Shown one piece after another: positions 39,718 through 63,910 of a stretch of DNA of 64,000 bases. The DNA comes from Antedon mediterranea (Eukaryota > Echinodermata > Crinoidea > Comatulida > Antedonidae). The notes under the pieces were generated by a model, which was given only the letters and a program-made list of their open reading frames with translations, did not search any database and had not been told where the DNA came from. Made by a program: the position numbers and the translations under genes. How positions within the stretch are numbered: the stretch's first letter is position 1; each line of letters opens with the position of its first letter. The stretch covers positions 2,009,001 through 2,073,000 of the forward strand of contig NC_092670.1 in NCBI RefSeq assembly GCF_964355755.1. Direction: 5' to 3'.

Positions 39718-42700
39718 TTATTGTTCTTTCCCTTTCCAGCCAAGCCAAGTCCATATCCAATGTTCTAAAAAGCAGAAAATAGGACAAATTAACCGCTTTG
39801 CCATGGTTATTGTATCGTCTTGTTAATAATTATGTAGACCTAATTTCTTAGGGCATATCATATGTATGAGCTCTGTTTAACTATTAAGATACAAGCTCTC
39901 AATGTTGCTTGTTCTTGTTTCTTCTCAAAGTAAGTGAAACACTTGAATCCGGACTGAAACAATATTTATGTAGCATATGTGGTTTACGCTTACACTAATT
40001 GACAACATCAAAGCCAGTAGAGATAGAATTCGTATATGCATACACCTAACAGCTTACACTAATTGACAACATCAAAACCAGTAGAGATAGAATCCAAATT
40101 GGATTTGGAAAAAAAACAACCTACTCTTTGGTTCCTGGTCACAGTCTTCCCCGTCTGAGCATTTACAGATAAAAGAGTTTGAAGACACACCAACAGGTCT
40201 TGGAAGACAAACAGCATTTTCAGAACACGTCCCACATTGGTTATCATATTCTAGAAAGAAAGAAAAAATGCAAAATACCAATAATAGAATGAGATGAAGA
40301 ATAACGACAACAACGCGCGTCATAATCATTCATTCAATTTAGGCCTAAACGATACGTGGTCTGTATTTGACAATAGATTTGAACTTTGACTTGAACAACA
40401 TAACCAGTGATGGATCTGAAAACGAATACTATTTTAAGGAAGCTGGGAACGGAAGGTGTGGTTAAATGTTTACTACGTAATACCAATAGGTTTATTAACT
40501 GTTGTAGAAGAGTAGTAGAAAGCTTACTCTGTTGTCTTATTGGATGTACAGCTGTAATGCCAGTCAACACTGCTGGTTGTTCTCCGATAGGGGCATTCAT
40601 TGAAGCAGACATCGTGGGATGCAGTTTGTTGACAGTTATCACACTATTATGACCCCAATCTGTCCAATAGAGTTGATCGCCAAAAATTGTCAATGAATAC
40701 GGATGACTAATTATAGGCGACTCTGACAGAAGAGTTACTAGATTCCCCCCATTAAAATCACTTGATTGAATCATGTCTTGTCCGGCGTCATTCCAGTAGA
40801 GAGTAAATGTCGGGAAATCAATTGTCAGTCCATTGGGCCAGGTAAGATTTTCAACAATGATATGTCGGTGCGAGCCGTCCATTCCAGCCTTTTCAACGAC
40901 TCCACTACCCCAATCCGTCCAGAAGATATATCTAATAAATTAAAGAACTAGAAAGATTAGTGAGATGTATGTAGTGCTGCAAATAGAAATTGGGTAGAAA
41001 GCTAAGTTAGAAGCTTCAATTCAATGCATCGATGGATAGATGATTAAATATGGAATGAAAGAAGGAAGCAACAAATATGGAATGAAAGAAGGAAGCAACA
41101 TGCTCAGGAGGTTTTCAAATATTAAACAGAGCAATGAAAACTGGCATATTTTGTTGTCTTCATGTATAAGGGGTGTTTGTATTACTAACCATCACAATGT
41201 ACATTTCTACTTATTTTTATCAATGTAAACAATTCCATAAAATGTATTTCTATTATCTGTAAACTTTAAGATTAGAATCAAGTTTGCACAAGGACAAACA
41301 CAATGAAATACTGTAGATGAATATCATTTTTGTTATAAGAAAAGTGATCTTTTGCATAAATGTAAACTAATAAATACCCAATTCCTGGATGAACAACAAT
41401 GTCTCGCGGCTTTTCTAAATTTTCGTACACCACTGAAACAACTTGTAGACTGTCAAGGTTCACAGCCTTGATAACCTGTCGTTTAGTTTCTGTATAGTAG
41501 AGATTGTTGTGAATCCAGTCGAGTGCAATGCCTTCGCAATCACTTGCATTTGTCAGCAAAGCCTCCGGTTCGGTGTCTTCTGATAGATCCAGTGGCAGGC
41601 TAGAATCAAACACAAACATGGTATGATATTAGATGTGTAGTATGTCGATTTGTATGGCCAAGCAGGCAGGGGCGCCGACGCAAACTGTATAGCAATATAA
41701 TAATCAGCAGAGGTTGAAAGCTCTCCCCGACCGTACTGTAGTACTGATTATTAAAAAAGTCTACTTGGATAAAGATTTAAAACTAGTGGTCCTGTCTTTA
41801 TATCTGTATCTTTCAAAGGAGTAGGTGGTTACCTCGGTGTACTGGTCCATCTCAGGCCTTGTTGTTCATTGCATGCGCTAGACTAAGATGAATATTACTG
41901 TAATACCATCTTCCAAATCGTTGGTTTCAGGTCCTTAGTAACAACAACTCATTCTCATCAGAATGATATTATTAGAGATAACCTACCGGAATATTGTTTC
42001 TTGTGTGACGTCACTCCAAAAGAGAAATCTGTTCTCCATATCATAGTCGATTGCCATCATAGTTCCATTAAATTCTTTTCGATTCTCTGCTACTCCAATA
42101 ATATCTTCTGTCCCATCAAAGATTGGATATGATGCTATGGATATGTGGTTCTCAATAACCAATAGTTTGGCGTTTAAATCACTGGTAGCAACGCAAGAAT
42201 GCATGTTTTTGGCCAAATGGTACCCAACAGAGCATGCGCACTCAACGACGCCTGACGAATCTTCACACCAATGACTGCAAAATTCACTAACAAGTTCTTC
42301 GCATGAGGTTATCTGAACGCATGATGTTCCATCTTCAGCTAACTTGTAGCCAAAAGAAGAACATTGACAGAGGGAATCGATGCAAAGATCCTCGCAACCA
42401 CCGTTGTTAACATAACACATAACTAAATAAAATCAGAATTTAAGACAAAATAAATATAAGTTTGCTTTAAATTGTAAAACACAGGGTGAATACAAGAAAT
42501 TGTGAGTTGAGAAAATGGATTTACTATGTAGTAATGTATTCTATTGTGCCATACATGTTCGAGACAGTGCAGTATATTTGATTGACTGAATGACACCAAC
42601 CTCTTTCAGAACATATCTCTTCAAATTCATCCGATCCATCACTGCAGTCATCATTGCCATCACACATTAAAGCAGCTGCAATACAGCTGCCAGTTTCGCA

Positions 42701-45264
42701 AGTGAACTCTGTCATTGAACATGTTGGCGGTACGCAATTGCTCTCATCTGACCCATCATCACAATCAGCGCTGCCATCACATTTTAGATCGTCTGAGATA
42801 CAGTTCCTATTGTTTGAACATTCAAATGATCCATCGGGGCATCTAGGGCATTCTCCATCATCCTTACATCGGCAAATAAATCGACCAACCGATAAGAAGT
42901 TCGGTCTCGGAAGACATACACTATTCTCGTCACATGTATTATCAAGACATACATTCTCAAAATCTGAAAGAAATGTTCATTTTAAAGTTATAAGGCACTT
43001 TTATCCGATATATGAGAAGAGTTGCGTATTAGAAAGGTTAACCTTATTTATGACACAGGAAGACTCGGGTTAAATTCTCGACAACTCCTCCCAGTCCACT
43101 CAGCTGTAAGTAGTAACTGGTTGAAATACTAGGAATGATACGGCGGTGTGGCAAGCCACCCTACCACATAATGCCAAGGCTTAGTGTACAATGAGCTAGC
43201 TCAACGATCATTCCCCTACATTCATTCTCATTTCAAATTCTATTGGAAAAAGTCTGGTTTATTTTTATAGCTTTATTTTGCCATGATTTCTGTAACCAAA
43301 TACTATATATCTGAAATTTATGCCTGTAAACATTGTTACTAATTAACTCACATGAGATTAAATTGGATGTTGTCAATCTGTATAAAGATAGATAATATTA
43401 ACACCATTTATTACCTGGCTGACGCAACGGGTGAACTATTTTCAAGTCCATTACCCTATTTAAATTTGTAATGAATTGTGTAGCCGTCGCTGAAGGATCT
43501 AACTTATCTGCAGTTACAACACTTTCCAATGTCCAATCAGTCCAGTACAAAATATTTCCAAAGATTGTGATCGCGAAAGGATGACTAATGAAATCTTGAG
43601 AGGAAAATATCGTCTGTACGTTGTCACCATCAAAATCGCTAACTTGTATAAACTTTAACTTGGCATCAATCCAATATAGAGTGGACGCGGGGAAGTCAAT
43701 GGTCAATCCGTTCGGCCAGGTCAGGTTGCTGGCAATTGTCTGTCTAAACGACCCATCAAGTCCAGCCTTTTCTATTTTACCATTTCCCCAGTCTGTCCAG
43801 AACATATATCTAGAGAGAGATTTTGAGTAAGTTGATGTTAATTATTGTATGCCATAATGATTAAGAATATTTAGATTGAAGAAATGCAATCTTTTTATTT
43901 ATATTATAGATAGTGTGTACGTAGTGTATTACTCATCATCACTCATTATAGTATTATATAGATAGTGTGGTACATAGTGTATTACTCATCATAGTCCGGT
44001 ACACAAGGCCATAGAGAACAGTCTTGACTAAAGAGGTCACCCAGTATAAAGAATAAAAAAATATAAAATTAAATACCCAATTTCTGGATGTAAAACGATT
44101 GCTCTGGGCTCAGACAATCCCTCGTCTATTAAGGTGACTTTGTTTAAACTATCAAGATCGACCACGCCGATGATGTCATTCTCCACATCTGTGTAATACA
44201 GATTATTGTGTATCCAATCAGTGGCAATACTGTCACATGTTCCTGTGTTACTTATTATTACTTCTGCCTCTGACTTGTCATCAAAGTCAAGTGATATTCT
44301 GTAGTAAAAAATTATAAATGATAATTGTTATATAACAAAATTGAATTTATAATTTTTCAATATGAAGTGAAAAAACGTCCAGCGCCCAGCAATAATGAAT
44401 TCTCAAAATAAGATCGTAACATTTGCGAAAATGCAAAATTTCTCCCACCACAAAAATGTTTCAGATGTGTAGGTGAACCGGCTTCTATTTAGTACTGTCA
44501 CAATTAATGTTATTGGGATTAGCCTAAGCTCTTAACCAACTTTATTTTCAGTTAAATCAAACTTAGCCTGGGGTTCGTCTTGAAAGATTAAATCAGTTTT
44601 GTAGGTGTGTATTTAAATTAGCTTGGACTAGAGTGGCTTTAAATTTACAATCATCAAAAGTGGGAAATGAATTTGCCTAAGTGTCTTTGTTTATTGTCTT
44701 GCTTTGTAGACATATCATACATTATTATTCAATGCAGCACTATGTTGCAGTGGATCCGAATTGAACAGATTTCTAGATTCTAGAAATTGAAGATACTGAA
44801 GTGAAGGTCTACCAAAACATACCTAAATATAGAATTACGTAAAATGTCTGACAAATACATATAATTCTGTCTGATGTCATAATCAATAGAGACAAGACCG
44901 GAAGCCTCAATCTGTTTGTTGTTAAGTGGAATATTTGTTGAATCACCATCGAAACCTAGATATTCTGATAACTTGGTTCTATCTGTAATAACTATCAACT
45001 TTGGCTGTACATCGCTGATAATGTCACAAGTTCGATTGTCATTTGCCAGAGTGTACCCTTCGGTGCAAACACACTTCACCACCCCCTCATCGTCATTGCA
45101 AAGTTGGCTACATTCATATCCATTGTCTACACATGCCGTTGCCAAAACACATGACCGTCCGTCTTCCGCGAGTGAAAAGCCAGGTGAACAACTACATGAT
45201 ACATGTTGATCCAGTGAACCGGTACAAATGTCATCACACCCTCCATTATCAATTGAACAGGGGC
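39718..45264 (-). CDS. C-terminal EGF / YWTD / LDLa part of the large gene
   Basis: Exons: 45264-44823, 44298-44077, 43809-43415, 42963-42601, 42422-41987, 41599-41378, 40931-40528, 40250-40125 and candidate last exon 39764-39718. Exons 1-3 hold two EGF modules ([22 protein letters not shown]) and the first YWTD beta-propeller ([34 protein letters not shown]). The fourth holds an EGF-like module and two LDLa ([29 protein letters not shown]). The next three repeat EGF x2 plus a propeller ([34 protein letters not shown]). The two EGF-propeller sets have matching exon sizes (442/436, 222/222, 395/404), so one is a duplicate of the other. The final EGF reads [14 protein letters not shown]. The stop-containing exon ([15 protein letters not shown]) is the weakest call: another frame of it stays open for 43 codons but does not match the donor phase. 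Confidence 0.82.
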
Positions 45265-48200
45265 CTGTAAAAAAAAATGAGTTCAGATGAAAAGCCATAA
45301 TCTTAAAGACGTGGTTGCAGCATCCCTTATACAAGAAATGCTCAATCATTACAATATTAAATATGGCTTTTCTGTGCGCATGTCATTTATATAATGATTA
45401 ATCTTAAGTTCTTAAATGTAGGTGGCATAGGCTACCTAAACTAAACTACTCAACTGAAGAATTTACTACAAAAGCGCTCAGAGCAACTGAACACATAACT
45501 GTCACCAAAGGATTGCTACCAAACTGACATAAGTTTATACGAAAACGTAAACATTTCCTACATAAATAGCAATTAGTAAATTATTTTCCACACATATGCA
45601 GAATATGAATAAATATCAAACAATTTAACATGCATAATTTGGAACAACTACATTTGCAATTGAATATTTTGCTACATTTTGCTAAACTTTACAAAAACAT
45701 GTGAAATGTAATGCTGCAAATAATCTTTTTACTGCAGTACAATATTTGGCGTTACACTTACAAGATGCTTCGTCTGATCTGTCATTACAATCATAGTTGT
45801 TGTTGCACAGGTAATATTTCGGAATACAGCGGTTAATATCGCACGCAAATTGATCTGAAAGGCATTGGGAATCGCAGTCGCTTTCATCTGATCCATCTAG
45901 ACAATCCTCGTCCCCATCACATTTCCAAGAATTATGTACACAGTCACCATTAGCACATGCAAACTCACGAGATGAACATGTTGATGTTATGTCACAATTG
46001 ATTTCATCGGTGCCATCTTGACAATCAGCGTCTCCATCACAAAGCCACGTGTTGGTAGTGCAGACGCCATCGCATAAGAAATCACTTGTATCGCATGTAA
46101 TTGGCGGGCAGTTGAACTCATCAGCACCATTGGAACAGTCATCATCAGAGTCACAAACCCACACTGTCGGTATGCACTCATCGTCAGTACATTCAAACTC
46201 ATCAGATTTGCAATTCGATTGAGTACAGCTTACTTCATCAGAGTTATCACCACAATCATCAAAACTATTGCATACAAATATGCTTAGCACACATTGGTCA
46301 TTACCGCATATAAACTCATCAGCTTTACATTTTGGAGTAGTACAGTCAACTTCATCGGAATTGTCTCCACAATCATCGGATCCATCACACCGCCACCCAT
46401 TTTGTATGCATTTATTGTTATCGCATTGGAACTCGCTTGTTGCACATGTTGGTGGAGGGCAGTCAACTTCATCAGAATTATCTCCACAATCATCGGCTCC
46501 ATCACACCGCCACCCATTTGGTATGCATTGATTGCTATTGCATTGGAACTTGCTTGTGGCACATGTTGATGGGGAGCAGTCAACTTCATCAGAATTATCT
46601 CCACAATCATCGGCTCCATCACACCGCCACCACTTTGGTATGCATTTATTGCTATTGCATTGGAACTTGCTTGTGGCACATGTTGATGGGGGGCAGTCAA
46701 CTTCATCAGAATTATCTCCACAATCATCGGCTCCATCACACCACCACCCATTTGGTATACATTGGTTGTTATTGCATTGGAACTTGCTTGTGGCACATGT
46801 TGATTGAGAGCAGTCAACTTCATCAGAATTATCTCCACAATCATCAGTTCCATCACATCTCCATCCACCGGGTATACATCTGCCGTCTGTTGTACATTGG
46901 AATTCCTGTGGGACGCATGTCTGAGAAGTACAGCCAGTCTCATCAGAGTTATCTTCACAGTTATTTGAGCCGTCACACCTCTGACTACTTGGAATACAAT
47001 TACCATTATCACACTGGAACTGAAATGGTGAACAGGTTTTCTGTGTGCAGTCAACTTCATCAGAATTATCTCCACAATCATCGGATCCATCACACCGCCA
47101 CCAATTTTGTATGCATTTATTGTTATTGCATTGGAAATCGCTTGTGGCACATGTTGGTGGAGCGCAGCCAACTAAGTCAGAATTATCTCCACAATCATCG
47201 GCTCCATCACATCTCCATCCACCGGGTATACATCTGCCGTCTGTTGTACATTTGAATTCCTGTGGGACGCATGGCTGAGAAGTACAGTCAGTCTCATCAG
47301 AGTTATCTTCACAGTTATTTGAGCCGTCACACCTCTGACTACTTGGAATACAATTACCATTATCACACTGGAACTGATATGGTGAACAGGTTTCCTGTGT
47401 GCAGGCAACTTCATCAGAATTGTCTCCACAATCATCGGATCCATCACACCGCCACCCATTTGGTATGCATTGATTGTTATTGCATTGGAACTGGCCCGTG
47501 GCACATGTTGGCGAAGAGCAGTCAACTTCATCAGAATTATCTCCACAATCATCGGCCCCATCACATCTCCATCCACCGGGTATACATCTGCCGTTTGTTG
47601 AACATTGAAATTCTTGTGAAAAACATGTCTGCGAAGTACAGTCAGTCTCATCAGAGTTATCTTCACAGTTATTTGAGCCGTCACACCTCTGACTACTTGG
47701 AATACAATGACCATTATCACACTGGAACTGATATGGTGAACAGGTTTCCTGTGTGCAGTCAACTTCATCTTTACCATCACTGCAATCATTTTCAAAATTG
47801 CATACAAGGCTGCAAAAAAAAAACATTTGAAAAAAAAAAAGTTTACAGCTGTATCTCAATATATTGTTCGTGACAGTTGGGAATAAGTAAAAAGTATATC
47901 AATTCATTCAATATCTATATTATAAGTGAGAGAGTTTGTCTGTCTGTTTGTTTGTTCGTTATACAAATTTTTGTTACTGCACGTAATCTTACATATGGGG
48001 TATCTAAATGACCGCAATTGTACCGGGAATGTTCTAAGCTATATTTCAACATCATCCGCCATCTGGGATCCAAGTTAGGGACCAAAATGTGGTCAAAACC
48101 CCCACTTTCGATGTTTGTTCGTTATACAAATTTCTGTTTCTGCACGTAACCATACGTATGGGGTATCAAAATGATGGCAATTGTACCCGGAAGGTTTTAA

Positions 48201-51200
48201 ACTACATTTAAAACAATTCCCCCGACTCCTGGGGTTTTTTGTGGGGGGGGGGGGGGGGTTGTGATGTCATTTTTTGCTAGGGCTGGGGGTTGTTGTAGGC
48301 TATCGAATTGTAAAATTACACCACAAAAGTTTTACAGTATTTGAATTATCCTCAGCAAGGCGTTTGGGGAAATATAGATATAGATATAGATATACATATT
48401 TTATTCATTAACCAATATGACACCTATTCAATTACACATTTAGCAAAGTATTTAACCATATCCAGCTATGTATCAGTCTCTTGGATTGTCTCATTACAGA
48501 CATCCATTTCCTGTGTGAACATACACACGTTCTTTACTGTTACTGTGTACAACTACACACCATGCCTCCAAGGAAAAAACGTCCATTGTGGGAGAGTGGG
48601 GTTTGGGAGTTGGGGTTCAGGGATAGTGGGGATTTTGCTTAGACCAGAATTGTGTTTGGAAATGTTAAAGTATTTAACTATCCCTGGGAAAGCGGCTGGG
48701 AGTTTGGGGTGGGGATGTAGGCCTATCACCATGACCGAAACTGTATTTGGAATGTTTTAAACTACATTTGAAAACTGCCACTGAGGGATTATGGGTTGGG
48801 AGTGATAATAACATAATTTGTACTGGAACCGTCTTCAACACATCACCCAGTGTGACGTAATGGCGTAATGAAGTAGCCTATATGCTTGGAATTGTACTAG
48901 GAAAAGTTACTATATTTGAACTGTCTAGGGGAAGAGTTAAGGTTTGTTGATTGTGGCTGGTGGTGAGAGGAGAAAGAAGGCTGGGGACCGCAGTATCTAA
49001 ATTAGATACATGACCGAAACTGGGAATGTTTAAAACTACATTTGAAAACTGCCACTGAGGGATTATGGGTTGGAAGTGATGGCTAACATAATTTGTACTG
49101 GTGAGAGGAGAAAGAAGGCCGGGGGAACCGCAGTATCAACATTATATATTTTAATTATCAGCCAATATGACACCTACTCATTTACACAGGTTACAACGTA
49201 CTTAAGCCATAGGCCTATCATACCTATGTATGCCCTCTCAATTTGAAGCTAACGTTTAATTGAATTTGTCCTTCACTGTAAAGAGTGTGGGGTGTTATTA
49301 AGGAGTGGAGGTTGGTGCGTATACGGAGATACTGGCGTCGGGTGTTATGTACTGAGAAGGCTTTAAACTCATTTTGAAACCCGCCCTGGGGCGGGTATAA
49401 TTGCTAGTAATTTATATATGCATGTGTATGATTTGCAGATGCACATGTCTTAAGTTCGCGCCTTTGCACAATATATATAAACTTTATTGTTTAATTCCAG
49501 AAATTATGTTCATTTCATTTATTTATTTGACTAACAAACCATACATTTGTCAGGGACTGCTAAAGTAAATAAGATTACTGTAACTATAACTACTATACCT
49601 ACAAAAGTCCCATTTCTTAACTAAAATAAGTTTATAATAAACACTATATTTAGACAATAAATTAAATCAAATACGCAAAAAAAACCAAAAAAAAAATCAA
49701 AAAAAGAATTAAAGAAGAAAGTGTCAATAAATGTTAAAATATGTTGGAACTTTTTAACCATAAAACAAGTTTGGTTGTAGATTTTCCGAGTTTTACCGTA
49801 ATAGAATGTTTAGTATTGAGAGTGTTTGTCTTCAACAGTAAACAAGGTTTGTAATTTTAAATAAAACTAACCTAAATGGTATACACGTTGTACCACCGTC
49901 GCATGTATATTCAGTCTCCTCACAGCCTTGATTTGTTGGGCAATCAACTTCATCAATGCCGCTTATACAGTTGACGGTGCCATCGCATCGCAAATATGTG
50001 GGTATGCAGCTGCCATCAGTACATGGAAACTCGCCAGGACAAGCTGCAACAATTTTTAAACATGAATATTTCCAGAAAAATACAACATTTTGTTACATTA
50101 GATTAGATTATTATTATAATATTACTATTGTTATTGTCATCGTCGTGATCATCATTATCTTTAGATGTTTTCAAATGTTATTTCTACTTTTATTCTGTTT
50201 CTATTACCGAGTTATAATATCAGGACTTTTTATAATCTTCTTAAGTTATGTAAAATGTAATACGGTGATTGATTTGAATTGGATACTTTTTTAATAATGC
50301 CGTTTACCGTCTATCAACCTACTACATATTTCACTACTAAAAGAAGAGGAGATAACAAAACACTATTTTAGTAGCATTCAAGTGATGACATCCCTAGGTC
50401 ATAAGGATTGCCATCGTTATCTGTCTTTAAGCTACCAACCATATCCATAGCGGATTGGTAACCCTTTTAAAACCAAGTCTTTTATAAGTTGCACTGTATT
50501 GAAGAAAAGTAACAGGATTGGAACCAAAGAGATTGGTAATCAGGCATACAAGTCACAGTGCCAATACATTTTACTGTTTTGTTAATTGCTGAACAGATGC
50601 TGAATCATGTTTAACTTACCACAGTTTTCTGATGCTGGTCCAACTTTATCATCACAGTATTCCCATCTTTCATTTGGATCTGTCGTGTAACACCAAGGGT
50701 GAAAACCTCCATCCGGGTTACGGCAGAAGTTGTGATCTCCCAAACCTCTATTTGGGTACACATATGGTTTTCTTGAATGTTCATGAGGCGTTTGTGATGT
50801 CCATTTTTGGCAAGTTTTTCCAGTATTTGTGGTACTAACTGAACCTCTATAATCAATACCGAATGTATTTTCATAACATTCTGAAGAAACAAGAGATAAA
50901 ATCCAGACAATAACAAAACATCGAAGGGCATATCAATGAATTTCATAAATACGTGTTTGTCATCATCAGTTCGTGAGCTGAGACCAGGCAGTCGGACGAT
51001 AAATAAATACAAGTGCAGGTTTCCGTGACAGCAACACAGTAAACAATTTAAGGCAACAAATGAAAATCTCTATTCCCTTCAAAATCTGATATAATGTTTA
51101 CTGTTACTTTTATAGAAAACCCAAATTCAAGCTTGCTTACCTAAGAGTTGGTGCCTCGTTTGTCATGGACCAAATTAAATTAAAATAAAATGTAAGCTTA

Positions 51201-54200
51201 GTGTATCCCGAAATAAGATTATATGAGAAACAAAGGTCATTATGCAATATCAAAACTCCTAGAATGATGTACATACAGAATATTCAAACTTGTTCTTACC
51301 TGGTATTGGCCGAGTCGGTACCTCCTGAGTCGGTACCTCCTGAGTCGGTACCTCCTGAGTCGGTACTTCCTTAGTTGTTACCTCTTGAGTAGTTGCTGGC
51401 TTAGTTATACCCGTTTCTGTAAAAAGCATTTATGTAATTTAATAATGTAAATTGGATATTTAATTTCCTTCTTTTCAAGATGTAATATAAAGACAAAGAA
51501 AGATATACCCTGGGGATGGAAAGAGCAGTAAAACGTATAAAATATAAACTGGCGTTGTTCGTTTTTAAGATTCTAAATGTCTTATCTGACGTTGTGGATA
51601 AATACATTTGACTGTTTGTTAATTGCTGAACAGATGATGAATCATATTTAACCTACCACAATTTTCTGATGCTGGTCCAACTGTATCATCACAGAATTCC
51701 CATCTTTCATTTGGATCTGTCGTGTAACACCAAGGGTGAATATCTTCATCAGGATTACGGCAGAAGTTGTGGTCTCCCAAACCTGTGTTTGGATACGCCT
51801 CTGGTGTTCTTGAATGTCCATGGGGTGATTGTGATGTCCATTGTTGGCAAGTGTGTCCACTATTGGTGGTACTAACTGAACCTCTATAATCAGCACCATT
51901 TTCACTTTCATAACATTCTGAAGAAACAAGAGATTAATAATTCCAGACAATAAAACACATCAAACATATTCTATTTCAAATCATTTTGCTTTCTGTCCGA
52001 GTTGTTGGTGATAAAACCGGCAATAAATTCTATTAAATTCATTATTCAATAAAAATTTGAATAACATGTATATGCTTATTATAAAACAAAGAAAGATTTT
52101 ATGTGAAACATGTTCAAATGGCAATGTATCACAAGCCGTTCAATGATGTACATATAGTATATTAAAACTTGTTCTTACCTGGTATTGGCTGAGTTGGTAC
52201 CTCCCGAGTAGCTTGCTCAGTTGTGCGAATTTCTGTAAAAAGCATTGTAATAAATGTAAATTGGATATTTCATTTCCTTCTTTTCAATATGTAATATAAA
52301 GACAAAGAAAGATAAACTCTAGGGATGGAAAGAGTAGTAAAAACCAATAATGAATCTAAAGGATGTGTGGATGACAGTGGTGATGCTGGTCTATCAGGAT
52401 GGTATCAACATCTGTCTGTGCCTCTGATGTGATAGTGCCCGTGAACAATATTATTTAATACAAATTATTTGTAAATTGTTTATTTAGCTGTTAGTCATGT
52501 TTGAAACTGTACATTACTTATTTGAACCTAACCAAATTCTTTAATAAAATAAGAGTTTTTCAATAGCAATACAGAATGGGAAACAACATAGCTTTCAAAA
52601 GCAATACAAGTATTTTATAAGCTTAGGCAGTGGCACTGTATTGGCCAATAGTAACATGAATTGAACCAAAGACTCTGGGATTGGTAATGAAGCATGTCAA
52701 CCTACACGCCACAATACCAATACATTTGACTGTTTTGTTAATTGCTGAACAGATGCTGAATCATGTTTAACCTACCACAGTTTTCTGATGCTGGTCCAAC
52801 TGTAGCATCACAGAATTCCCATCTTTCATTTGGATCTGTCGTGTAACACCAAGGGAGAATATCTTCATCAGGATTACGGCAGAAGTTGTGGTTTCCCAAA
52901 CCTGTGTTTGGATACGCCTCTGGTGTTCTTGAATGTCCATGGGGTGTTTGTGATGTCCATTTTTGACATGTGTGTCCACTATTTGTGGTACTAACTGAAC
53001 CTCTATAATCAGCACCATTTTCACTTTCATAACATTCTGAAGAAACAAGAGATTAATAATTCCAGACAATAAAACACATCAAACATATTCTATATCAAAT
53101 CATTTTGCTTTCTGTCCGAGTTGTTGTTTGGTGATAAAACCGGCAATAAATTCTATTAAATTCATTATTCAATAAAAATTTGAATAACATGTATATGCTT
53201 ATTATAAAACAAAGAAAGATTTTAAGTGAAACATGTTCAAATGCCAATGTATCACAAGCCGTTCAATGATGTACATATAGTATATTAAATGTTCTTACCT
53301 GGTATTGCTGGTTCCTCCCGAGTCGGTTCCGCCCGAGTTGTTTCCTCCCGAGTCGGTTCCGTCCGAGTCGGTTCCGTCTGAGTCGGTTCCGCCCGAGTCG
53401 GTTCAGCCTGAGTCGGTGCTTGCTCGGTTGTGCCAGTTCCTGTAAAAAGACCATTTACGTTGTAATGTAAATTTGGATGCTTAATTTCCTTCCCTTTAAC
53501 ATGTACTAAAAATGAAAGACAGAGAAGATCAGTACAAACTAATAATTACAAGCCGTACAGATGATGAGTATGATTATAGATACAGTAGCGCAAATTGGCT
53601 ACGTGGAACTACAAATGAGTAATGTTATGTTAAACAAATGACGCCAACCCACCTCTTTCATAACGGTCAAAACCATAATCCGTCTTTAATCCTCCAGACT
53701 GATTCCTATCTTTAGGGCTTAAAACACATTCGTGATTGTTTTTGTCATAATCAAAAGATATACAAGTAAATGATTGTACGTTGTTGCAACGTTTAGCGCA
53801 ATCTTCTGGTGATACATCGTAGTAATGAACTTTAAGTGTGCTGTAACGATTTACCGTAGACTCTGGATATCTTGTAAATTCTAATAAAGCTAAAGCTAAA
53901 TTTGAGTAAAGATTAACGTGAATATTAGCGTTATAATTAGTATAGTGGTAAGAAGAATAGAAGGCTACGTATCATAAACTATTCAACGACAAGTAAAGGC
54001 GAAACGTTTGGCCACTGATACATAAACTGTTGCGCACTTATCTACTAAGAGGACTGACATACGTAGTTGATGTAAATTGCTCTATTCTCCATCTAATAGG
54101 ATATTGCTATCATACTCTTGTTTAACATATTTTTTGCGCATGGTATCATATCTAAAAGAATCGAATACATGTCCTTGAAAATTGTATCAAGGTACTATAC

Positions 54201-57200
54201 AATACCCTCTATGTTGGACAGAAGTAAGATAGGATAGTAGACTTGACCACTGCGCTACTGCTGTTGGTCAGAAGTAGGATTAGTGTCAACTTGACCACTG
54301 CGCTACTGCTGTTGGTCAAAAGTAGGATAGGATAGTAGACTTGACCACTGCGCTACTGCTGTTGGACAGAAGTAGGATTAGTGTCAACTTGACCACTGCG
54401 CTACAAAATCAAATTCCACCTACCACATTCGCTTTCCATGGGAATATAACACAAATCCCATCTTGTGTTTTGATCTGTTGTATAACACCAAGCGAATCCA
54501 GAATAACCATCGGGATGACGACAGAAATTGTGATCTCCTAAACCGTTACCGGGACTCTTTTCGGGAGTGTCTGTGTGTTCATGAGGCGTCTGTGATGTCC
54601 ATTTTTGGCACGTTTTGCCAGACTTTGTGACGCTAACCGTGCCTCTATAATCAGCAGCATCTACTCTTTCGTAGCACTCTTAAAAATACACAATTACGTA
54701 CACAGTATGAGTACAAACATCTATTTTGGCCAATAAAAATCTTTTAACCTCTTTTGCAAGATACCATTTACAACATCATAATATAGAATATTGATATTTT
54801 GATTTAAACCAAGAATGATGAGAAAATATATTTTTTTAATATGTTATCTTTGAGTCTGACAAATGCAGCTTAAAGTTGTGTTAATGGATCTTATCTCCAT
54901 AATTGAGGCACACACATACTTACCAGAAGCTGGCTGAACTACTGTCGTTGTCTCTGTTGTGGTAAGAATGTCTGTAAAATAACATTTTAATAACAAAATG
55001 TGAATACAATATATGCAAATGTATGCATTTAAAAACAGTTAATTTTGGTTTTGTAGAGTTATGATACAGACGTAGTTGAGTTTCGGACTTTACGTGTGAT
55101 ACAGATGTAGATACCACTTAAGTTTATCGATTTGAATTCATATACCTAATTCATAATGATCAAAAGGATTTCCATAATAATCTGTCTTCAAGCCACCGAC
55201 CATATCCTTATTTTTATCGCTTAGATCACAGTCAAAATCTTCTTTGTAATAATCAAAAGATCGACAAACAAACGATGTTTCTTCAATACAGCGTCTGGCA
55301 CATTCCTCTGGGAAAACATTGTATAAGTGGCGGTTGTTATGACCTGATATGGCAGAATCTGGATACCTTGTAAATTTTGGCAAATCTATAAAAAAAGGAA
55401 AACAATTTAAATGTTAATATACATATTATATTGTACAGCACAATTTATAGTTATATTATTGTTAAAACTGTACATTTAATGTATTATCATTTATTATACT
55501 GCCCTTTAAACTTGCCAATTGAGTTGACATTTTAAAGCAAATGGTACCATAGGCACTTACCAGGTTCTATTTCGACTGGTTCGTTTGTTGTGATAGTACC
55601 TGTAAAAAACACATTTAAAACAGTGTGAAGCAAAGCAACCCGTTTTAACACTTTACAACATGGCATGCATTTAAATACATTATAATTGGGATTTCTTCAA
55701 TCAGACATAGTAAATAAAAATACCAAACTACCTCTGTCATAGTCATCATAATGAGCGCCAAAATAATCGGTTTTAATCCACCAACCATGTCTTTATCCTT
55801 GTTTACACCAAGACATTGTGTTTCTAGAACTCGCTGTATTGATTTATTACCAATGTACATATGTTCATTTTAATAATTTTAAATTTTACGTTTAGAAACA
55901 TTTTATATAATTCGTGTTGGATGTATTAAGAGTTAATTTATTATGCTTAAGCTACTTTGAAACTTTCAGTAACTCATCATTGACAATTTTAAATAAGGTA
56001 TTTAATCTTGGATGACAGAAACAAATATTTGTGTCGTCAGCAAATAAAATAAAATGTTGTAATTTAGAACTATTACGTATTTCATTAACAAAAATAAAAA
56101 ATAAATGGTGGTCCAAGAATCGATCCTTGGGGAACACCACAAGTTAAACGGGAATGGGAAGAGTTAAACTTATTTAGAGAAGTAAACTGAAAACGATTGG
56201 AAAGGTAGTTTTTAATAAGTTTTAAAGGAAGGCCTCTGATACCGTAATTTCTCATTTTTACTTTGTAATTTTTTCAAAGATATCTAAGGCAAAATCTGTT
56301 GAGTAATTTTTTCTGAAACCATATTGGCATTTAAATAAAAGTTTGTTTTTAGTTTAAAAAGAAAAAAATCTGTTATGTATGTATGTCAATTTTTTTTAAA
56401 TATTGTTTTTATGAAGATCAATTTTGTCACTGTATTATTCTTTTTGAGCAGTACGGAAGATTTTGGTAAGTACATTTTGATATTTAACATATTTATCTTT
56501 GTTCTTTTGTTTTTTAGATGTAAGAAATGTTGTATATAATTTGTGTTTTTATTTATCGATATATTTAGGCCTAAAGATGTATTGTCCCCTGTTTTTGTTG
56601 AATATGCCATTTTAATGTAACATAATAGTTATCCACTTTGACCAAAAAAAAATTGGATAAAAAAAATGTATCTTAACTGACAAAACTGTAATATAAAGCA
56701 AAAAATGGTCAAATTGGCTGCCAGCCAATTGGTTTTTGGTTGAATTTAACCATTTATTTTGTCATTTTATAAGTGAAAACATTATTTTTTCCAGGGTTTT
56801 TTCTATGGAAGTGATTAACTTTATTAAAACTACAAAATAACATATTCAAAGTCTAATTTAATTAATCTTCATTTTTTATGTTTTTGGGGGACAATACATC
56901 TTTAACTAGACCTTAGTTATCCAAGGATTTTTCTCTGGTGCTTAGTTGTGTTAATTGATCTTATCTCCATAATTGAGGCACACACATACTTACCAGAAGC
57001 TGGCTTAACTACTGTCGTTGTCTCTGTTGTGGTAGAAATGTCTGTAAAATAACATTTTTTATTACAAAATATGAATACAAGATATGCAAATGTATGCATT
57101 TCAAAACAGTTAATTTTGGTAGAGTTATGATACAGATGTACATTTTACATAGCTAAGTTTCGGACATTACGTATGATATACAGATGTAGATACCATTTAA

Positions 57201-60200
57201 GTTTATTGATTTGAATTCATTTACCTAATTCATAATAATCATACGGATTGCCATAAGTTGGCTTCAAGTGACCGACCATATCCTTATTTTTTTCGCTTAG
57301 ATAACACTTTAATGTGGTTTTGTCATAATCAAAAGATAGACAAACAAACGATGTTTCTTTAATACATATTTCAGCACATTCTTCTGGGTTAACATGTTCT
57401 AATTGGCGGTTGTTATGACCATCAATGGAAAAGTCTGGATACAATTTAAATTTTGACAAATCTACAACAAAAAATGGAAATTTTAATTTTAATTTTATAG
57501 GCCTATATACAGTACAATTTAAAATGTATTATTGTTAAAACTGGGCATCTGCGCATTTAATCATCTATCATACTGCCCTTTAAACTTGTCAATTAAGTAG
57601 TAGCTGGTAGGATATCGCTGCTGTCAAATGGTACCATAGGTATACTGCACAAATTCTAGTAAATTCATTAATCAATACAAATTTGAATAACATGTATATG
57701 CTTAGTATAAAACAAAAAAAGATTTTGTGAAACATGTTCAAATATCAATGTATCACAAGCCGTTCAATGATGTGCATATAGTATAATAACTTGTTTTTAC
57801 CTCGTATTGTCTGAGTTGGTTCCGCCCGAGTCGGTTCCGCCCGAGTCGGTTCCGCCCGAGTCGGTTCCGCTCGAGTCGGTTCCGCTCGAGTCGGTTCCGC
57901 CCGAGTCGGTTCCGCTCGAGTTGGTTCCGCTGGAGTCGGTTCCGCCCGAGTCGATGATTGATCGGTTGTGCCAGTTCCTGTAAAAAAAATTAATGTTCTA
58001 ATGTAAATTTGGATGCTTAATTTCCTTCCCTTTAGCATGTAATAAAAATGACATCAGTACAAACCAATAATTACAAGCTCTACAGATGAGTATTACAACC
58101 TTTTCCGTACGGGACAAATTATAGATACAACAGTAGCGCGAATTGGCTACGTGAGACTACAAATGTAATGTTATGTTAAACAAATTAATATTTCACCCAA
58201 ATTTTGACCTATTTCAAACCCTCTTTTACCCTTATTTATTTATTTGTTTGTTTGTCTTGTCTTTGTCTATACTTGGTCTCTTGCGTAGTGTATGTACCGT
58301 CTGTAACCCCTGTTTGTCTCTGTCTATGAACATTTGATCCAAATTTTTTTATACAACTTTTTTCCTGGTGGAACCTGTCGTAAAGCTCTTTGAGCTTATT
58401 TGTGTTTTCTCCAGATACAATGCATTTATATTAACTTGATTCATACTTTGTCAACATATTTTGAAATTTGCTTTGTATAAATAAATGAATGAATGAATGA
58501 ATGAAAATGACGCCAACCCACCTCTTTCATAACGGTCAAAACCATAATCCGTCTTTAATCCTCCAGACTGCTTCTTATCTTTAGGGCTTAAAACACATTC
58601 GTGATTGTTTTTGTCATAATCAAAAGATATACAAGTAAATGATTGTACGTTGTTGCAACGTTTAGCGCAATCTTCTGGTGATACATCGTAGTAATGAACT
58701 TTAAGTGTGCTGTAACGATTTACCGTAGACTCTGGATATCTTGTAAATTCTAATAAAGCTGAAGCTAAATTTGAGTAAAGATCAACGTGAATATTAGCGT
58801 TATAATTAGTATAGTGGTAAGAAGAATAGAAGGCTACGTAACATAAACTATTCAACGACACCAGTAAAGGCGAAACGTTTGGCCACTGATACATAAACTG
58901 TTGCGCACTTATCTACTAAGAAGACTGACATACGTAGTTGATGTAAATTGCTCTATTCTCCATCTAATAGGATATTGCTATCATACTCTTGTTTAACATA
59001 TTTTTTGCGCATGGTATCATATCTAAAAGAATCGAATACATGTCCTTGAAAATTGTATCAAGGTACTATACAATACCCTCTATGTTGGACAGAAGTAAGA
59101 TAGGATAGTAGACTTGACCACTGCGCTACTGCTGTTGGTCAGAAGTAGGATTAGTGTCAACTTGACCACTGCGCTACTGCTGTTGGTCAAAAGTAGGATA
59201 GGATAGTAGACTTGACCACTGCGCTACTGCTGTTGGACAGAAGTAGGATTAGTGTCAACTTGACCACTGCGCTACAAAATCAAATTCCACCTACCACATT
59301 CGCTTTCCATGGGAATATAACACAAATCCCATCTTGTGTTTTGATCTGTTGTATAACACCAAGCGAATCCAGAATAACCATCGGGATGACGACAGAAATT
59401 GTGATCTCCTAAACCGTTACCGGGACTCTTTTCGGGAGTGTCTGTGTGTTCATGAGGCGTCTGTGATGTCCATTTTTGGCACGTTTTGCCAGACTTTGTG
59501 ACGCTAACCGTGCCTCTATAATCAGCAGCATCTACTCTTTCGTAGCACTCTTAAAAATACACAATTACGTACACAGTATGAGTACAAACATCTATTTTGG
59601 CCAATAAAAATCTTTTAACCTCTTTTGCAAGATACCATTTACAACATCATAATATAGAATATTGATATTTTGATTTAAACCAAGAATGATGAGAAAATAT
59701 ACTTTTAGTATGTTATCTTTGAGTCTGACAAATGCAGCTTAAAGTTGTGTTAATGGATCTTATCTCCATAATTGAGGCACACACATACTTACCAGAAGCT
59801 GGCTGAACTACTGTCGTTGTCTCTGTTGTGGTAAGAATGTCTGTAAAATAACATTTTAATAACAAAATGTGAATACAATATATGCAAATGTATGCATTTA
59901 AAAACAGTTAATTTTGGTTTTGTAGAGTTATGATACAGATGTATTTAACATTTTACGTAATTGAGTTTCGGACTTTACGTATGATATAGATGTAGATACC
60001 ACTTAAGTTTATCGATTTGAATTCATATACCTAATTCATAATGATCAAAAGGATTTCCATAATAATCTGTCTTCAAGCCACCGACCATATCCTTATTTTT
60101 ATCGCTTAGATCACAGTCAAAATCTTCTTTGTAATAATCAAAAGATCGACAAATAAACGATGTTTCTTCAATACAGCGTCTGGCACATTCCTCTGGGAAA

Positions 60201-63200
60201 ACATTGTATAAGTGGCGGTTGTTATGACCTGATATGGCAGAGTCTGGATACCTTGTAAATTTTGGCAAATCTATAAAAAAAGGAAAACAATTTAAATGTT
60301 AATATACATATTATACTGTACAGCACAATTTATAGTTATATTATTGTTAAAACTGTACATTTAATGTATTATCATTTATTATACTGCCCTTTAAACTTGC
60401 CAATTGAGTTGACATTTTAAAGCAAATGGTACCATAGGAATACGGCACTTACCAAGTTCTATTTCAACTGGTTCGTTTGTTGTGATAGTACCTGTAAAAA
60501 ACACATTTAAAACAGTGTGAAGCAAAAATTACATTGTTAAAACTTATTTAAATAAACTATAATTGGGAGTTTTAGTCACAGATATAGTAAATATTAACCA
60601 TGTCAGAAAACTACAGGTGCATAATTAAATATACCATCGCTAAAAATAAATTGGCCTTCAAACAATCTCCTCAACGATTTCCTGGTTCACGTTCGTACGA
60701 TTTCCTGGTGCACGTTCGTACCATTTCTAACCGGATAGTTCATGTCGGAGACAGGTACCGTATTAGAACGTTCTATCTCATATCTAGGTACCTCCAGGAG
60801 TAAAGCTGTTTAATCACTTAAATTAATAACTCTTGTATAGTTATAATGTTATATTTAACACAAAATTCAAATGCAACGCTTATGTAGAATGTTGTTAAGT
60901 ATCGATATATTTCATTTTGTTTTTAATAAGAAAGTTGTACAATAGGCCTACATAGGCCTACATATTAAATAAACAATGATTTTCCTCACAACACACTTTT
61001 ATAATCGAATAAAGAAGTAGTACTGTGTGTAATTTTAGTTCAAATAAAAATACCCAACTACCTCTTTCATAGTGGTCGTAATGAGTGCCAAAATAATCTG
61101 TTTTTAAGCCACCGACCATGTCCTTATCCTTTTCACTTAAGTGACAATCACCCTCATCAACTTTATAATCAAAAGATCGACACACAAACGTTGCTTCTTG
61201 ATTACATCGTTCAGCACATTCCTCTGGTGAAACGTCATACAGATCTTTGTTGTTGTAACCATATATTGCAGCGTTTGGATATCTTGTGTAATCTAATAAG
61301 ATTGAATCTAAAAAAAGTGGAAAGTAACATTTGTAAATGTACTGTATATGTGTCTACAAACCTAATTGAGCGTGGTTCTCACTAGAGACGCAATGCAAGG
61401 ACGTACGCGCAACGCAAGCGAGTTGACCAATGATAAGCCACTGTTCGAATAATCCATCGCTTGTGATTGGTCAAATCACTTACGTTGCGTTACGTCCTTG
61501 CGTTGCGTTGCGTCGCTAGTGGGAACCAAGCTTTAGCGTGCAACGTATAAGTAAAATAAGGTCGTTATATATAAATTATACTTAATTCTGAACACAATAG
61601 AAATACTTCTGTATGGATCTCCTTCAAAGATAAACTATCTCAGCGCGATCGTTATCGTCCTATATGAACATGCCTCTGATGAGCATCTAATAACGATAAA
61701 TTAGCAAACCTAGTCATACAGTATTCTTTCGCTTGTGCAGTTCAAGTTGAAGAATGTTTTATTCAATTTCACTAATAATCTAATATTTACTTTTTATTTT
61801 AATAGATATACCGCACTACATCTAGAAAGAAGTTTATACTTGATAAACTGTATCAAGTGAAACCTTACCGGATTGTGTTGTTTCTGCTTCAGTCATGGTT
61901 GTACCTGCTGAAAAGATTGTAGAGAGGTATTTATAATGATTAATTGTTACACGTTCATAAAATGGTACTTTATTTAACAAAATATGGTTTTTATTTAGAC
62001 TTCAGATCGGTTATTGTTATTAATAATCAAATATGTTAAATGAAAATGACCCATAGAGAAATAAAGATTACCTGCAGTTGGTGCTTCCGTTGGGATGAAA
62101 ACTGTAAAAAAAGTATATAAATATAAATATAGTTAATACCCAGTGTCCATAAAAAATGTCATATTGGACTTTTGTTGCAAATACAGTACAAAATAAAATA
62201 TAAAAACATTACAAAAGTAAATCAATGAGGCAGGATCACCTAAAAGTTATAAATAAATATAACCGTCGAGAGGTCTCCACATAGAAATACTTACATGAAA
62301 TGAATAACATACATAAAAAAACTCATAGTAGGCTAATTATAAATATATTAAACCTACCTCTCTGATAATAATCGATCGGGATATTTTTAAAATAATTTAA
62401 CTCTAAACCACCACGAACCATATCCTTAGTTACTGAACTTAATTCACAGTTTCTATCTTCTCTGTAGTATTCAAAAGAGCGGCAAGTAAAAGACGTTTGC
62501 TCATTACACTTTTTGGCGCAGACGTCTATCGAAACACCCGTCAAATACATACTGTTCTGACCAGGTAAAGCGTGATCGGGATATACTCTGTAGTTTAATA
62601 AGGCTGAGTCTGAAATAAAAAAATTAAAAATGAGTATTAAATGCGAACATTGCAATGAAAGGAGATGTAATGACCCAAGTATATTACTTCAAAATGTGAA
62701 AATAATCAGCGTTGTTAATTACCCACTTTCTTACAAGAAGATTAAGGATACATAATCCCATATTTTACCGCAAGCCATACGCATTTTAAGCGGAAAAGGA
62801 TGAAATAACTAATATGCCCTATCTCAGTGCTACAAAGACGACGACGATAATGATTTTAAACAAAGAAACTTGACTCAAAGCAGGCTATTTTGTATTTTTC
62901 TTGAATTAAATACTTTGAATATACATACCTCTTTCATAATGGTCAATATGATCAACATTTGTCCTTAAGCCACCAACCGCCGTCTCCTTATCATATCTAC
63001 TTAATCTGCATTCATGATTGCTTACGTCATAATCAAATGATCGACAAATAAACGTATATGCTTCATTACATTGTTTAGCGCATTCTTCTGGTGAGACATT
63101 GTTCAGTTGTATGTTGTTGTAAGAATATATCTCAGAGTTTGGATATCTTGTGTAATCTAGTAAAGCTGAATCTAAAAGGTAGAAAGTAACATTTGTTATT

Positions 63201-63910
63201 GTACTGGGTATAACAATCTGACCAACTTTGCTTTGATGGTCAAACTTGGCTGGTTTGCAGAATTAAACCTGCCTAAATGTGGGTGTTCAGAGAAATGTTG
63301 TTGAACAAGCCAATTTGTTTTTGTTTTCTTTGTTAAAATGAATACCATACCACAATATCTTACCTCTTTCGTAATGATCAAACGGATTGCCAATATAATC
63401 TGTCTTTAAGCCATCGACCATATCCTTATTTTTATCGCTTAGGTCACACTCCCGATCTTCTTTGTAATAATCAAAAGATAGACAAATGAACGATGTTTCT
63501 TGATTACAGTGTTTAGCACATTCTTCTGCAGAAACATTGTTCAGGTGGATGTTGTTGTGACCATATATGGCAGAGTCTGGATATCTTAAATATTGTGGCA
63601 CAGCTACAGTAAATGAAGAAACGTGCAAAATAATGATTTAAAGAGAAGTCTATAACCCTAAAATAAAGGATGAATTAGTTCATAAACCTTTCGAAATGTC
63701 ATCATACTTTTACACTTGTTAAGATTGAGTTATATAACTTTAAAATCGGGCGGTGCCTGTGGCAGGTCGATGAAAGGTCTACTATCCATAAGCAACACTG
63801 TGGGCATGTGATGATGCGTATTTTCATTTTCTACTATAAAAAAAACAACATACACATTGCCATATACTTACAAGGTGCTGGTTTAACTGGTTCGTCTCTT
63901 GTGATATTAC
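39718..63910 (-). CDS. PAN-kringle-LDLa-EGF-YWTD giant receptor-like protein (5' partial)
   Basis: At least 37 exons can be joined on the - strand with GT/AG junctions and no phase conflict, about 9.17 kb of coding sequence (about 3050 residues); the N-terminus is beyond the window. The order is linker, PAN x3, two linkers, PAN, linker, PAN, linker, kringle, PAN, Thr/Pro linker, PAN, linker, [broken PAN], linker, PAN, linker, kringle, PAN, linker, kringle, linker, kringle, linker, kringle, then LDLa x19, EGF x2, YWTD propeller, EGF, LDLa x2, EGF x2, YWTD propeller, EGF, short tail. The C-terminal half is LDL-receptor-related in layout; the N-terminal half resembles plasminogen/HGF-type modules. 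No membrane segment is visible near the C-terminus, so it may be secreted, or the last exon may be wrong. It could instead be two genes if an unseen promoter lies near 50 kb. The in-phase kringle-to-LDLa junction argues for one gene. Ligand unknown. Confidence 0.72.
43036..43215. repeat. SINE-like remnant
   Basis: GGGTTAAATTCTCGAC (B-box-like) is followed by CCCAGTCCACTCAGCTGTAA and AACTGGTTGAAATACTAGG, an arrangement seen in several invertebrate SINEs. It lies in the intron between 42963 and 43415. The head is incomplete. Confidence 0.4.
45762..50043 (-). CDS. LDLa cluster: 19 modules in two exons
   Basis: Exon 50043-49872 (172 nt) holds one full LDLa ([20 protein letters not shown]) and the first part of a second ([17 protein letters not shown]). 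The 2048-nt exon 47809-45762 completes it ([19 protein letters not shown]) and adds 17 more in one uninterrupted frame. Nearly all keep six cysteines and the calcium cage [11 protein letters not shown]. Modules 2-10 repeat as three sets of three: [20 protein letters not shown]; then [15 protein letters not shown]; then CAT..FQCNNN.CI. The third type has then expanded to four consecutive modules. LDLa clusters bind basic ligands through acidic calcium sites. The intron (47810-49871) that splits module 2 contains a Helitron. Long frames on the + strand and in other - frames are shadows of the repeats. Confidence 0.93.
47914..49407 (+). mobile_element. non-autonomous Helitron
   Basis: The 5' end TCTATATTATAAGTGAGAGA directly follows A (47913). 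The 3' end has an 8-bp-stem hairpin ACCCGCCC-TG-GGGCGGGT (49379-49396), then seven bases and CTAG (49404-49407), followed by T. The A|TC...CTRR|T boundary and the subterminal hairpin are the Helitron hallmarks. At 1494 bp it has no Rep/helicase. Internally it has a G run (about 48241-48258) and two copies of a segment containing TTTGAAAACTGCCACTGAGG (about 48761 and 49038). Confidence 0.85.
50620..53439 (-). CDS. three kringle exons with Thr/Pro linkers
   Basis: Kringles: 53036-52776, 51917-51657 and 50880-50620, each 261 nt. They have [17 protein letters not shown] (or PHGHS), [19 protein letters not shown] and a C..ENC end; all six cysteines and the PWCYT core are present. Linkers: 53439-53299 ([10 protein letters not shown] repeats), 52232-52179, and 51416-51300 (QEVPT repeats). 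All are phase 1-1. The last kringle ends TGT-G and joins CT-TGT of the first LDLa exon in frame. Introns flanking the kringles at 51.6-52.2 and 52.7-53.3 kb are near identical, so these are recent tandem duplicates. The kringles have no attached protease, so binding roles are more likely than proteolysis. Confidence 0.9.
53653..55599 (-). CDS. duplicated block, copy B: linker, PAN, linker, kringle, PAN
   Basis: Exons: 55599-55561 (linker [12 protein letters not shown]), 55385-55146 (PAN), 54971-54924 (linker [13 protein letters not shown]), 54678-54424 (kringle; [39 protein letters not shown]) and 53895-53653 ([23 protein letters not shown]). Almost identical, introns included, to the block at 58.5-60.5 kb. 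PAN exons here keep four cysteines in [13 protein letters not shown] and [10 protein letters not shown]. Both kringles in the duplicated blocks replace the usual PWCYT by AWCYT. Confidence 0.9.
54215..54410. repeat. about 50-bp minisatellite (also at 59086-59281)
   Basis: Four units containing TTGACCACTGCGCTACTGCT and GTTGG(T/A)CAGAAGTAGGAT lie in the intron next to the kringle donor. The same four units in the same order are found in the other block copy at 59086-59281. Confidence 0.85.
55731..55812 (-). pseudogene. broken PAN exon
   Basis: The 3' part of a PAN exon remains (KDKDMVGGL, then the end with a GTAGTT donor), most like the exon at 61307-61062. A one-base loss shifts the frame before the conserved DYFGA.YD.Y end. 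The 5' two-thirds, with the cysteines, is missing. The break point at about 55810 is followed by a LINE fragment. Confidence 0.75.
55870..56480 (-). pseudogene. LINE reverse transcriptase fragment
   Basis: On the - strand, [17 protein letters not shown] and then, one frame off, [16 protein letters not shown] match RT blocks before and at the FADD active site. It is broken and truncated. It sits beside the broken PAN exon and the family 2 MITE. Confidence 0.8.
56575..56901. mobile_element. MITE family 2, copy C
   Basis: AGATGTATTGTCCCC and the inverted GGGGACAATACATCT end the element; TTAA follows on the right and CTAA precedes it. The internal ATTGGCTGCCAGCCAAT is a conserved palindrome shared with copy B. 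Confidence 0.85.
56994..57977 (-). CDS. linker, PAN and EPTRA-repeat linker exons
   Basis: Exons: 57977-57801 (177 nt; [20 protein letters not shown], then further EPTRA pentapeptides and QTIRG), 57461-57225 ([38 protein letters not shown]) and 57041-56994 (linker). All are phase 1-1. The EPTRA linker is a coding 15-bp minisatellite, likely an O-glycosylated stalk. It is longer and more uniform than its paralogue at 53439-53299. Confidence 0.88.
58186..58505 (+). mobile_element. retroposon insertion with GAAT tail
   Basis: About 320 bp present here are absent from the paralogous intron at 53638, where TTAAACAAAT runs directly into GACGCCAACCC. The insert ends in AAATGAATGAATGAATGAA, the tail type of CR1-like LINEs. 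It is a 5'-truncated LINE end or a SINE using one. Confidence 0.8.
58522..60491 (-). CDS. duplicated block, copy A: linker, PAN, linker, kringle, PAN
   Basis: Exons: 60491-60453, 60270-60031 ([21 protein letters not shown]), 59840-59793, 59549-59295 (kringle) and 58764-58522 (PAN). Sizes are identical to copy B (39, 240, 48, 255, 243). Few residues differ: for example ETSFICRS here against ETSFVCRS in copy B. All are phase 1-1 and keep frame, so both copies are probably used. Confidence 0.9.
60492..61061. other. intron, nothing further seen
   Basis: Intron between the linker ending at 60491 and the PAN exon at 61062. It is AT-rich, with a short AGGCCTACAT duplication at about 60950. No extra exon is supported. 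Confidence 0.5.
61062..63910 (-). CDS. N-terminal PAN repeats within the window
   Basis: Exons: 63910-63872 (linker [12 protein letters not shown]), 63603-63364 ([23 protein letters not shown]), 63171-62929 (PAN), 62609-62358 ([17 protein letters not shown]), 62101-62072 and 61908-61870 (short linkers), and 61307-61062 (PAN). Each PAN has four core cysteines in EECAKHC-, C.SFDYY- and C.LS- and ends DHYERG at the donor. All are phase 1-1. PAN/apple modules bind proteins or glycans. The preceding exons and the signal peptide must lie beyond position 64000. Confidence 0.88.
61369..61534. mobile_element. MITE family 3, copy 2
   Basis: The ends GGTTCTCACTAGAGACGCAA and GCGTCGCTAGTGGGAACCA are inverted. 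It shares TCGCTTGTGATTGGTCAA and CGTTACGTCCTTGCGTTGCG with 30035-30210. It lies in an intron of the large gene. Confidence 0.85.

Follow-up and report, generated by a model that had tools for sequence, protein, structure and literature searches.

A minus-strand gene of the crinoid Antedon mediterranea predicted to join kringle and PAN repeats to an LDL-receptor-related half

Does the minus strand of this locus encode one large protein that carries kringle and PAN modules together with the modules of an LDL-receptor-related protein (LRP), or do two neighbouring genes follow one another here? This question was addressed in a window of 64,000 nucleotides (the whole stretch of Antedon mediterranea DNA that was analysed, contig C1, 2009001-2073000) and in the adjoining sequence of the same contig, for which coordinates above 64000 are given as window-equivalent. 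The genome searched comprised 354 Mb in 18 contigs. It contains let-7, as expected of a bilaterian, whereas COX1 was absent from the assembly, mir-2 did not turn up in a low-power search, and glycosyl hydrolase 6, a tunicate marker, gave no match in a search that also lacked a positive control. The original prediction had proposed a single gene from 63910 to 39718, composed of 37 exons joining without phase conflict.

Exon chain and module order

Exons were delimited by open frames, splice-site scores and domain limits, and a 39-nt linker exon was added. The resulting minus-strand chain consists of 33 exons (9,660 nt) and encodes 3,219 aa in a single open frame with one start and one stop. This exon chain is real, and one frame indeed runs to the stop at 39718 as originally proposed. 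Instead of 37 exons, only 29 are supported in the window, and at least four further exons lie beyond its edge. Position 63910, which had been taken as the start of the gene, is the edge of the 39-nt linker exon; the start is predicted near window-equivalent 68,559, outside the window, and other exons also lie upstream of the linker. The features of the minus-strand chain are as follows.

68559-68472 (window-equivalent), minus: start and predicted signal-peptide exon, leader MMPKMSYLASTLLLLLALIYQCSARFVYY, before the first kringle
66750-66499 and 65202-64936 (window-equivalent), minus: kringle exons, outside the window
64462-64217 (window-equivalent), minus: PAN exon, outside the window
63872-63910, minus: 39-nt linker exon, class 1-1, first exon in the window, in frame with consensus splice sites
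63603-63364, 63171-62929, 62609-62358 and 61307-61062, minus: four PAN exons (Pfam PAN_1)
60270-60031, 59549-59295 and 58764-58522, minus: PAN, kringle and PAN exons (Pfam matches)
57977-57801, minus: AEPTR-repeat linker exon, within the block 56994-57977
57461-57225, minus: PAN exon, within the same block
57023-56994, minus: small linker exon, which may instead belong to an alternative first exon, 57099-56994
55385-55146, 54678-54424 and 53895-53653, minus: PAN, kringle and PAN exons (Pfam matches)
53505-53299, minus: AEPTR-like linker (exon model)
53036-52776, 51917-51657 and 50880-50620, minus: three tandem kringle exons (Pfam)
50044-50619, minus: junction intron, 576 bp, between the last kringle and the first LDLa module
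49872-50043, minus: LDLa exon of 1.5 modules that starts in phase 1 and ends in phase 2; the following exon supplies the rest of the second module
45762-47809, minus: LDLa array exon, 2,048 bp, about 17 modules
45264-44823, 44298-44077 and 43809-43415, minus: EGF-EGF-YWTD propeller 1 (Pfam, PDB matches)
42601-42963, minus: exon with one EGF and two LDLa modules (Pfam)
42422-41987, 41599-41378 and 40931-40528, minus: EGF-EGF-YWTD propeller 2 (Pfam)
40250-40125, minus: EGF exon (exon model)
39764-39718, minus: predicted last exon

A signal peptide, seven kringles, 10 PAN modules, 21 LDLa modules, six EGF-like modules and two YWTD propellers were counted from the sequence of the predicted 3,219-aa protein. 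The domain matches are above chance level, as seen from the Pfam E-values obtained with pieces of the protein (PAN, 2.5e-52; kringle, 4.6e-75; LDLa, 1.4e-27; YWTD, 3.4e-61). The modules are likely to be arranged in the order signal peptide, kringle/PAN repeats with threonine/proline-rich linkers, three kringles, 19 LDLa, EGF2-YWTD6-EGF-LDLa2-EGF2-YWTD6-EGF and a short tail, and the stretch in the window probably makes up most of a single gene whose product is a secreted modular protein of ca. 3,200 aa. Within the repeats, a 2.0-kb PAN-kringle-PAN stretch (53636-55634) is 97.9% identical to 58505-60526, and the kringle exons of the two stretches are identical over 255 nt; this copy may reflect a recent duplication or conversion, or possibly an assembly error.

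The chain might be divided near 57 kb, either by a second promoter or between two genes, giving an upstream kringle/PAN unit (68.5-57.2 kb) and a shorter PAN-kringle-LRP unit starting from 57099. Between 63.6 and 50.0 kb, a single phase-1 start exon resembling a signal peptide was found, and the division draws its support from it: exon 57099-56994, which begins with ATG, is hydrophobic and has a donor score of 10.9. One such candidate per 13 kb is, however, within chance at the overall scan rates, and the exon has no counterpart in the paralogue described below, whose leader matches the leader at 68.5 kb. A division at this point appears unlikely, and the join of the kringle/PAN modules to the LRP modules would hold even then.

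The junction between the last kringle and the first LDLa module

It had been proposed that the last kringle exon (50880-50620, ending in phase 1) joins the LDLa exon from 50043 (starting in phase 1) in frame, and this was confirmed. The acceptor and donor of the kringle exon scored 11.2 and 10.0, respectively, and its donor at the junction is the consensus GTAAGT; at 50043, the acceptor score is low (3.5). The agreement in phase is weak evidence for a single chain, since exons of class 1-1, to which almost every PAN, kringle and linker exon belongs, can be joined in any order. Although the phase argument of the original prediction thus carries little weight, a single chain with both halves is still the best-supported model, and its layout is repeated in the inverted paralogue.

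If two adjacent minus-strand genes were present instead, the third kringle would be the last module of the kringle/PAN gene, and an LRP-like gene would start just upstream of 50043. Erroneous fusion of neighbouring genes is common in gene prediction (PMC3927609), and the interval between the two exons contains polyadenylation-type hexamers in favour of such an arrangement, namely AATAAA and ATTAAA (50194 and 50295), of which about one is expected by chance at the local A+T content. Kringle and LRP genes are also separate elsewhere in the genome: when the genome-wide kringle matches (76) and the best 150 YWTD matches were compared by eye, the two co-occurred within about 200 kb only at the present locus, among the matches listed.

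The structure of the LDLa exons bears on this explanation. One LDLa module is split across exon 49872-50043 and the array exon 47809-45762 (phase 2), which makes it very probable that both are parts of the same gene; an LRP gene of its own would accordingly need a start upstream of 50043. In the 576-bp interval 50620-50043, a scan for ATG exons that encode a hydrophobic leader and have a donor score of at least 3 was negative in every phase, and the longest open stretch was 41 codons. The same scan recovered similar leaders (SYLASTLL...) at the 5' ends of both paralogues (68559-68472 and 82940-83018). The interval has an ordinary intron length (the median intron is 481 bp) and is partly filled by a decayed PAN exon on the right strand (50399-50446; 48 bp, 83% identity, E 4e-9), suggesting that the kringle/PAN repeat array formerly extended closer to the LDLa exon. 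The interval thus lacks a signal-peptide start exon and resembles an intron, the last kringle exon ends in a consensus donor, and the paralogue has the same order and likewise no start exon at its junction. All of these features argue against two adjacent genes, which we consider improbable. One large gene very probably joins the kringle and PAN modules to the LDL-receptor modules in a single chain, predicted to be secreted.

The inverted paralogue and the end of the protein

A plus-strand copy of 12 stop-free exons lies head-to-head with the kringle-LRP gene, from 82940 to about 98440, in the order SP-Kr-PAN-Kr-PAN-PAN-Kr-PAN-EGF2-YWTD-EGF-LDLa2. Its signal-peptide exon (82940-83018, leader MSTMASYLASTLLYLFICKCCASSFN) precedes the first kringle and is homologous to the 68559-68472 leader. 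The 19-module LDLa array is absent from this copy, and the last PAN exon directly precedes the EGF exon with a gap of 994 bp, in which a scan found no signal-peptide start exon. In the LRP exons shared by the two copies, protein identity was 76%, with dN of 0.14, dS of 0.38 and dN/dS of about 0.38 (NG86), indicating purifying selection. The presence of a paralogue with the same layout raises confidence in one gene. It is not independent proof, since two adjacent genes could be duplicated as a block. The paralogue frame hits a stop after the second LDLa module, which makes it the shorter copy. A further LDLa module follows in another frame (98380-98548, plus strand, window-equivalent), as though the protein had been cut short by a small indel.

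The LRP half contains LDLa repeats followed by an EGF pair, a six-bladed YWTD propeller and an EGF module, as in the LRP family (Pfam Ldl_recept_a, FXa_inhibition/cEGF and Ldl_recept_b), and its PDB matches were LRP2, LRP4, VLDLR and LDLR. For the propeller 1 segment, the top PDB score was that of LRP2 (1137 bits summed over 8 stretches); among single-propeller structures, LRP4 scored 256 bits and LRP6 about 183 bits. The closest matches to this half elsewhere in the genome were only about 40-50% identical per exon. The array exon 45762-47809 contains higher-order repeats of three modules exactly 354 bp apart, and the copy number may accordingly vary between individuals or be misassembled.

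The predicted last exon adds only 15 residues and the stop, and is followed by two AATAAA signals (39637 and 39617). From 40.1 to 29.5 kb, no exon was found in which a hydrophobic segment goes with a good acceptor, and none that was convincing after 98.5 kb in the paralogue; likewise, these two regions yielded no exon for the single transmembrane helix and cytoplasmic NPxY tail of an LRP. Since a transmembrane exon was detected in neither copy, the product is predicted to be secreted rather than to be a canonical LRP, and it does not qualify as an LRP-type receptor on these results. Predicted secretion is less certain than the rest of the model. The donor at 40125 is modest (5.1), the last exon is very short, and the nearest relatives of solved structure (LRP2, LRP4 and LDLR) all reside in membranes; these points would fit an LRP receptor that is anchored in the membrane, carries additional modules at its N-terminus and has transmembrane and cytoplasmic exons that escaped detection further downstream, perhaps past a LINE at 35.4-38.7 kb. 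We regard such a receptor as rather doubtful, because of the two scans described above and because the stop, with two AATAAA signals after it, is consistent with a 3' end.

Predicted role, related proteins and neighbouring sequence

In the PDB, one kringle matched plasminogen (K4) and apo(a) best, and the PAN modules showed weak similarity to plasminogen PAN. The lysine-binding site, which we take to comprise D55-x-D57, W62, R71, W72 and an aromatic residue at 74 in plasminogen K4 numbering, is kept in kringles 53036-52776 and 51917-51657 when aligned to plasminogen K4, and lysine binding is predicted for these two copies. Kringle 50880-50620 has lost the second Asp of D-x-D, and the other four kringles lack D-x-D. 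In the LDL receptor, the acidic motif of LDLa modules, which the LDLa repeats here also carry, binds calcium and grips ligand lysines. The predicted secreted protein would, in our proposal, act as a soluble multivalent ligand trap or as a matrix organiser or linker for lysine-exposing proteins. At least two kringles with K4 lysine-site residues would bind lysine-rich or C-terminal-lysine partners, the LDLa modules would contribute acidic calcium-binding motifs of the kind just mentioned, and both halves would thereby bind such partners jointly. The PAN domains would supply extra protein or glycan contacts, and the YWTD propellers would serve as rigid spacers or release modules.

Kremen is a kringle protein that partners LRP5/6 as a separate molecule, and the original prediction had drawn this analogy. 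A Kremen-LRP6-like role in Wnt signalling is not favoured, since the kringles resemble those of plasminogen and apo(a), and propeller 1 scores best with LRP2 and higher with LRP4 than with LRP6 (256 against about 183 bits). Kremen has the domains kringle-WSC-CUB (PMC3927609); in contrast, neither WSC nor CUB was among the Pfam matches of the gene pieces scanned, and the LRP half is not LRP5/6-like.

LRP2 (megalin) shares LDLa clusters and the order EGF-EGF-YWTD-EGF-LDLa with the present protein, which differs in having only two propellers and no detected transmembrane segment or cytoplasmic tail; LRP2, in turn, lacks a kringle/PAN N-terminus. Kringle and PAN modules are shared with the group of plasminogen, apolipoprotein(a) and HGF, which is also marked by a protease-like domain, but here no C-terminal trypsin-like domain was found among the Pfam matches of the gene pieces scanned, the PAN repeats are many, and the C-terminal half is LRP-like. 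In vertebrates, the kringle and LDLa folds are mostly found apart, on molecules that interact as ligand and receptor. Kringle, PAN and LDLa modules do occur in a single chain in lancelets, for which SRCR-Kringle-LDLRA-PAN-trypsin proteins have been tabulated; these contain SRCR and trypsin domains, and YWTD propellers are absent from the published table (PMC6337849). The claim of a new architecture thus has to be narrowed: the combination of kringle, PAN and LDLa is known, and the fusion of kringle/PAN modules to EGF/YWTD propellers looks new. No report of kringle and YWTD/Ldl_recept_b in one protein was found in the open-licence literature.

On balance, we lean towards a lineage-specific secreted pair in which a plasminogen-like lysine-binding kringle/PAN array is fused to megalin-like LDLa/YWTD modules, a new animal architecture that would combine two lysine-recognition systems and would have been built by exon shuffling continuing at this locus. 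If so, it would represent a new combination among shuffled extracellular proteins, in which a single chain holds YWTD propellers and two well-known folds that recognise lysine, the kringle and the LDLa module. It would not be a new kind of system, since invertebrates are rich in mosaic extracellular proteins. The locus displays stages of exon shuffling, namely exons duplicated in tandem, the dead PAN exon of the junction intron and the transfer of a PAN exon copy into an intron of a different LRP-type gene, and is a good test case.

The copied PAN exon lies on another contig (C9, 16779234-16779876, minus strand), where a ca. 640-bp copy of the PAN exon, together with intron sequence from both sides (81% identity to 54868-55526), lies in the sense direction between YWTD exons. 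It was rejected as a third case of fusion because it is a copied exon with an open frame whose acceptor AG has been destroyed. A dispersed repeat about 350 bp from this copy is common to an intron of the plus-strand paralogue, which suggests element-mediated exon shuffling.

Other sequence features were observed around the gene. Minus-strand LDLa exons at 71.1 and 70.6 kb were considered as its N-terminus and rejected, since a separate leader (MLGIVLLVTLTVTLSFNLATASG, 71455-71386) belongs to them and the kringle gene starts independently at 68.5 kb. The region 71455-70479 (window-equivalent, minus strand) appears to be a separate small gene or fragment with a signal peptide and LDLa, just upstream of the kringle gene, and its LDLa exon is partly tandemly duplicated. 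A LINE-like reverse-transcriptase element occupies 35444-38659 (minus strand), just downstream of the predicted gene end. LDLa-containing open frames at 19354-20222 on the plus strand probably belong to another gene.
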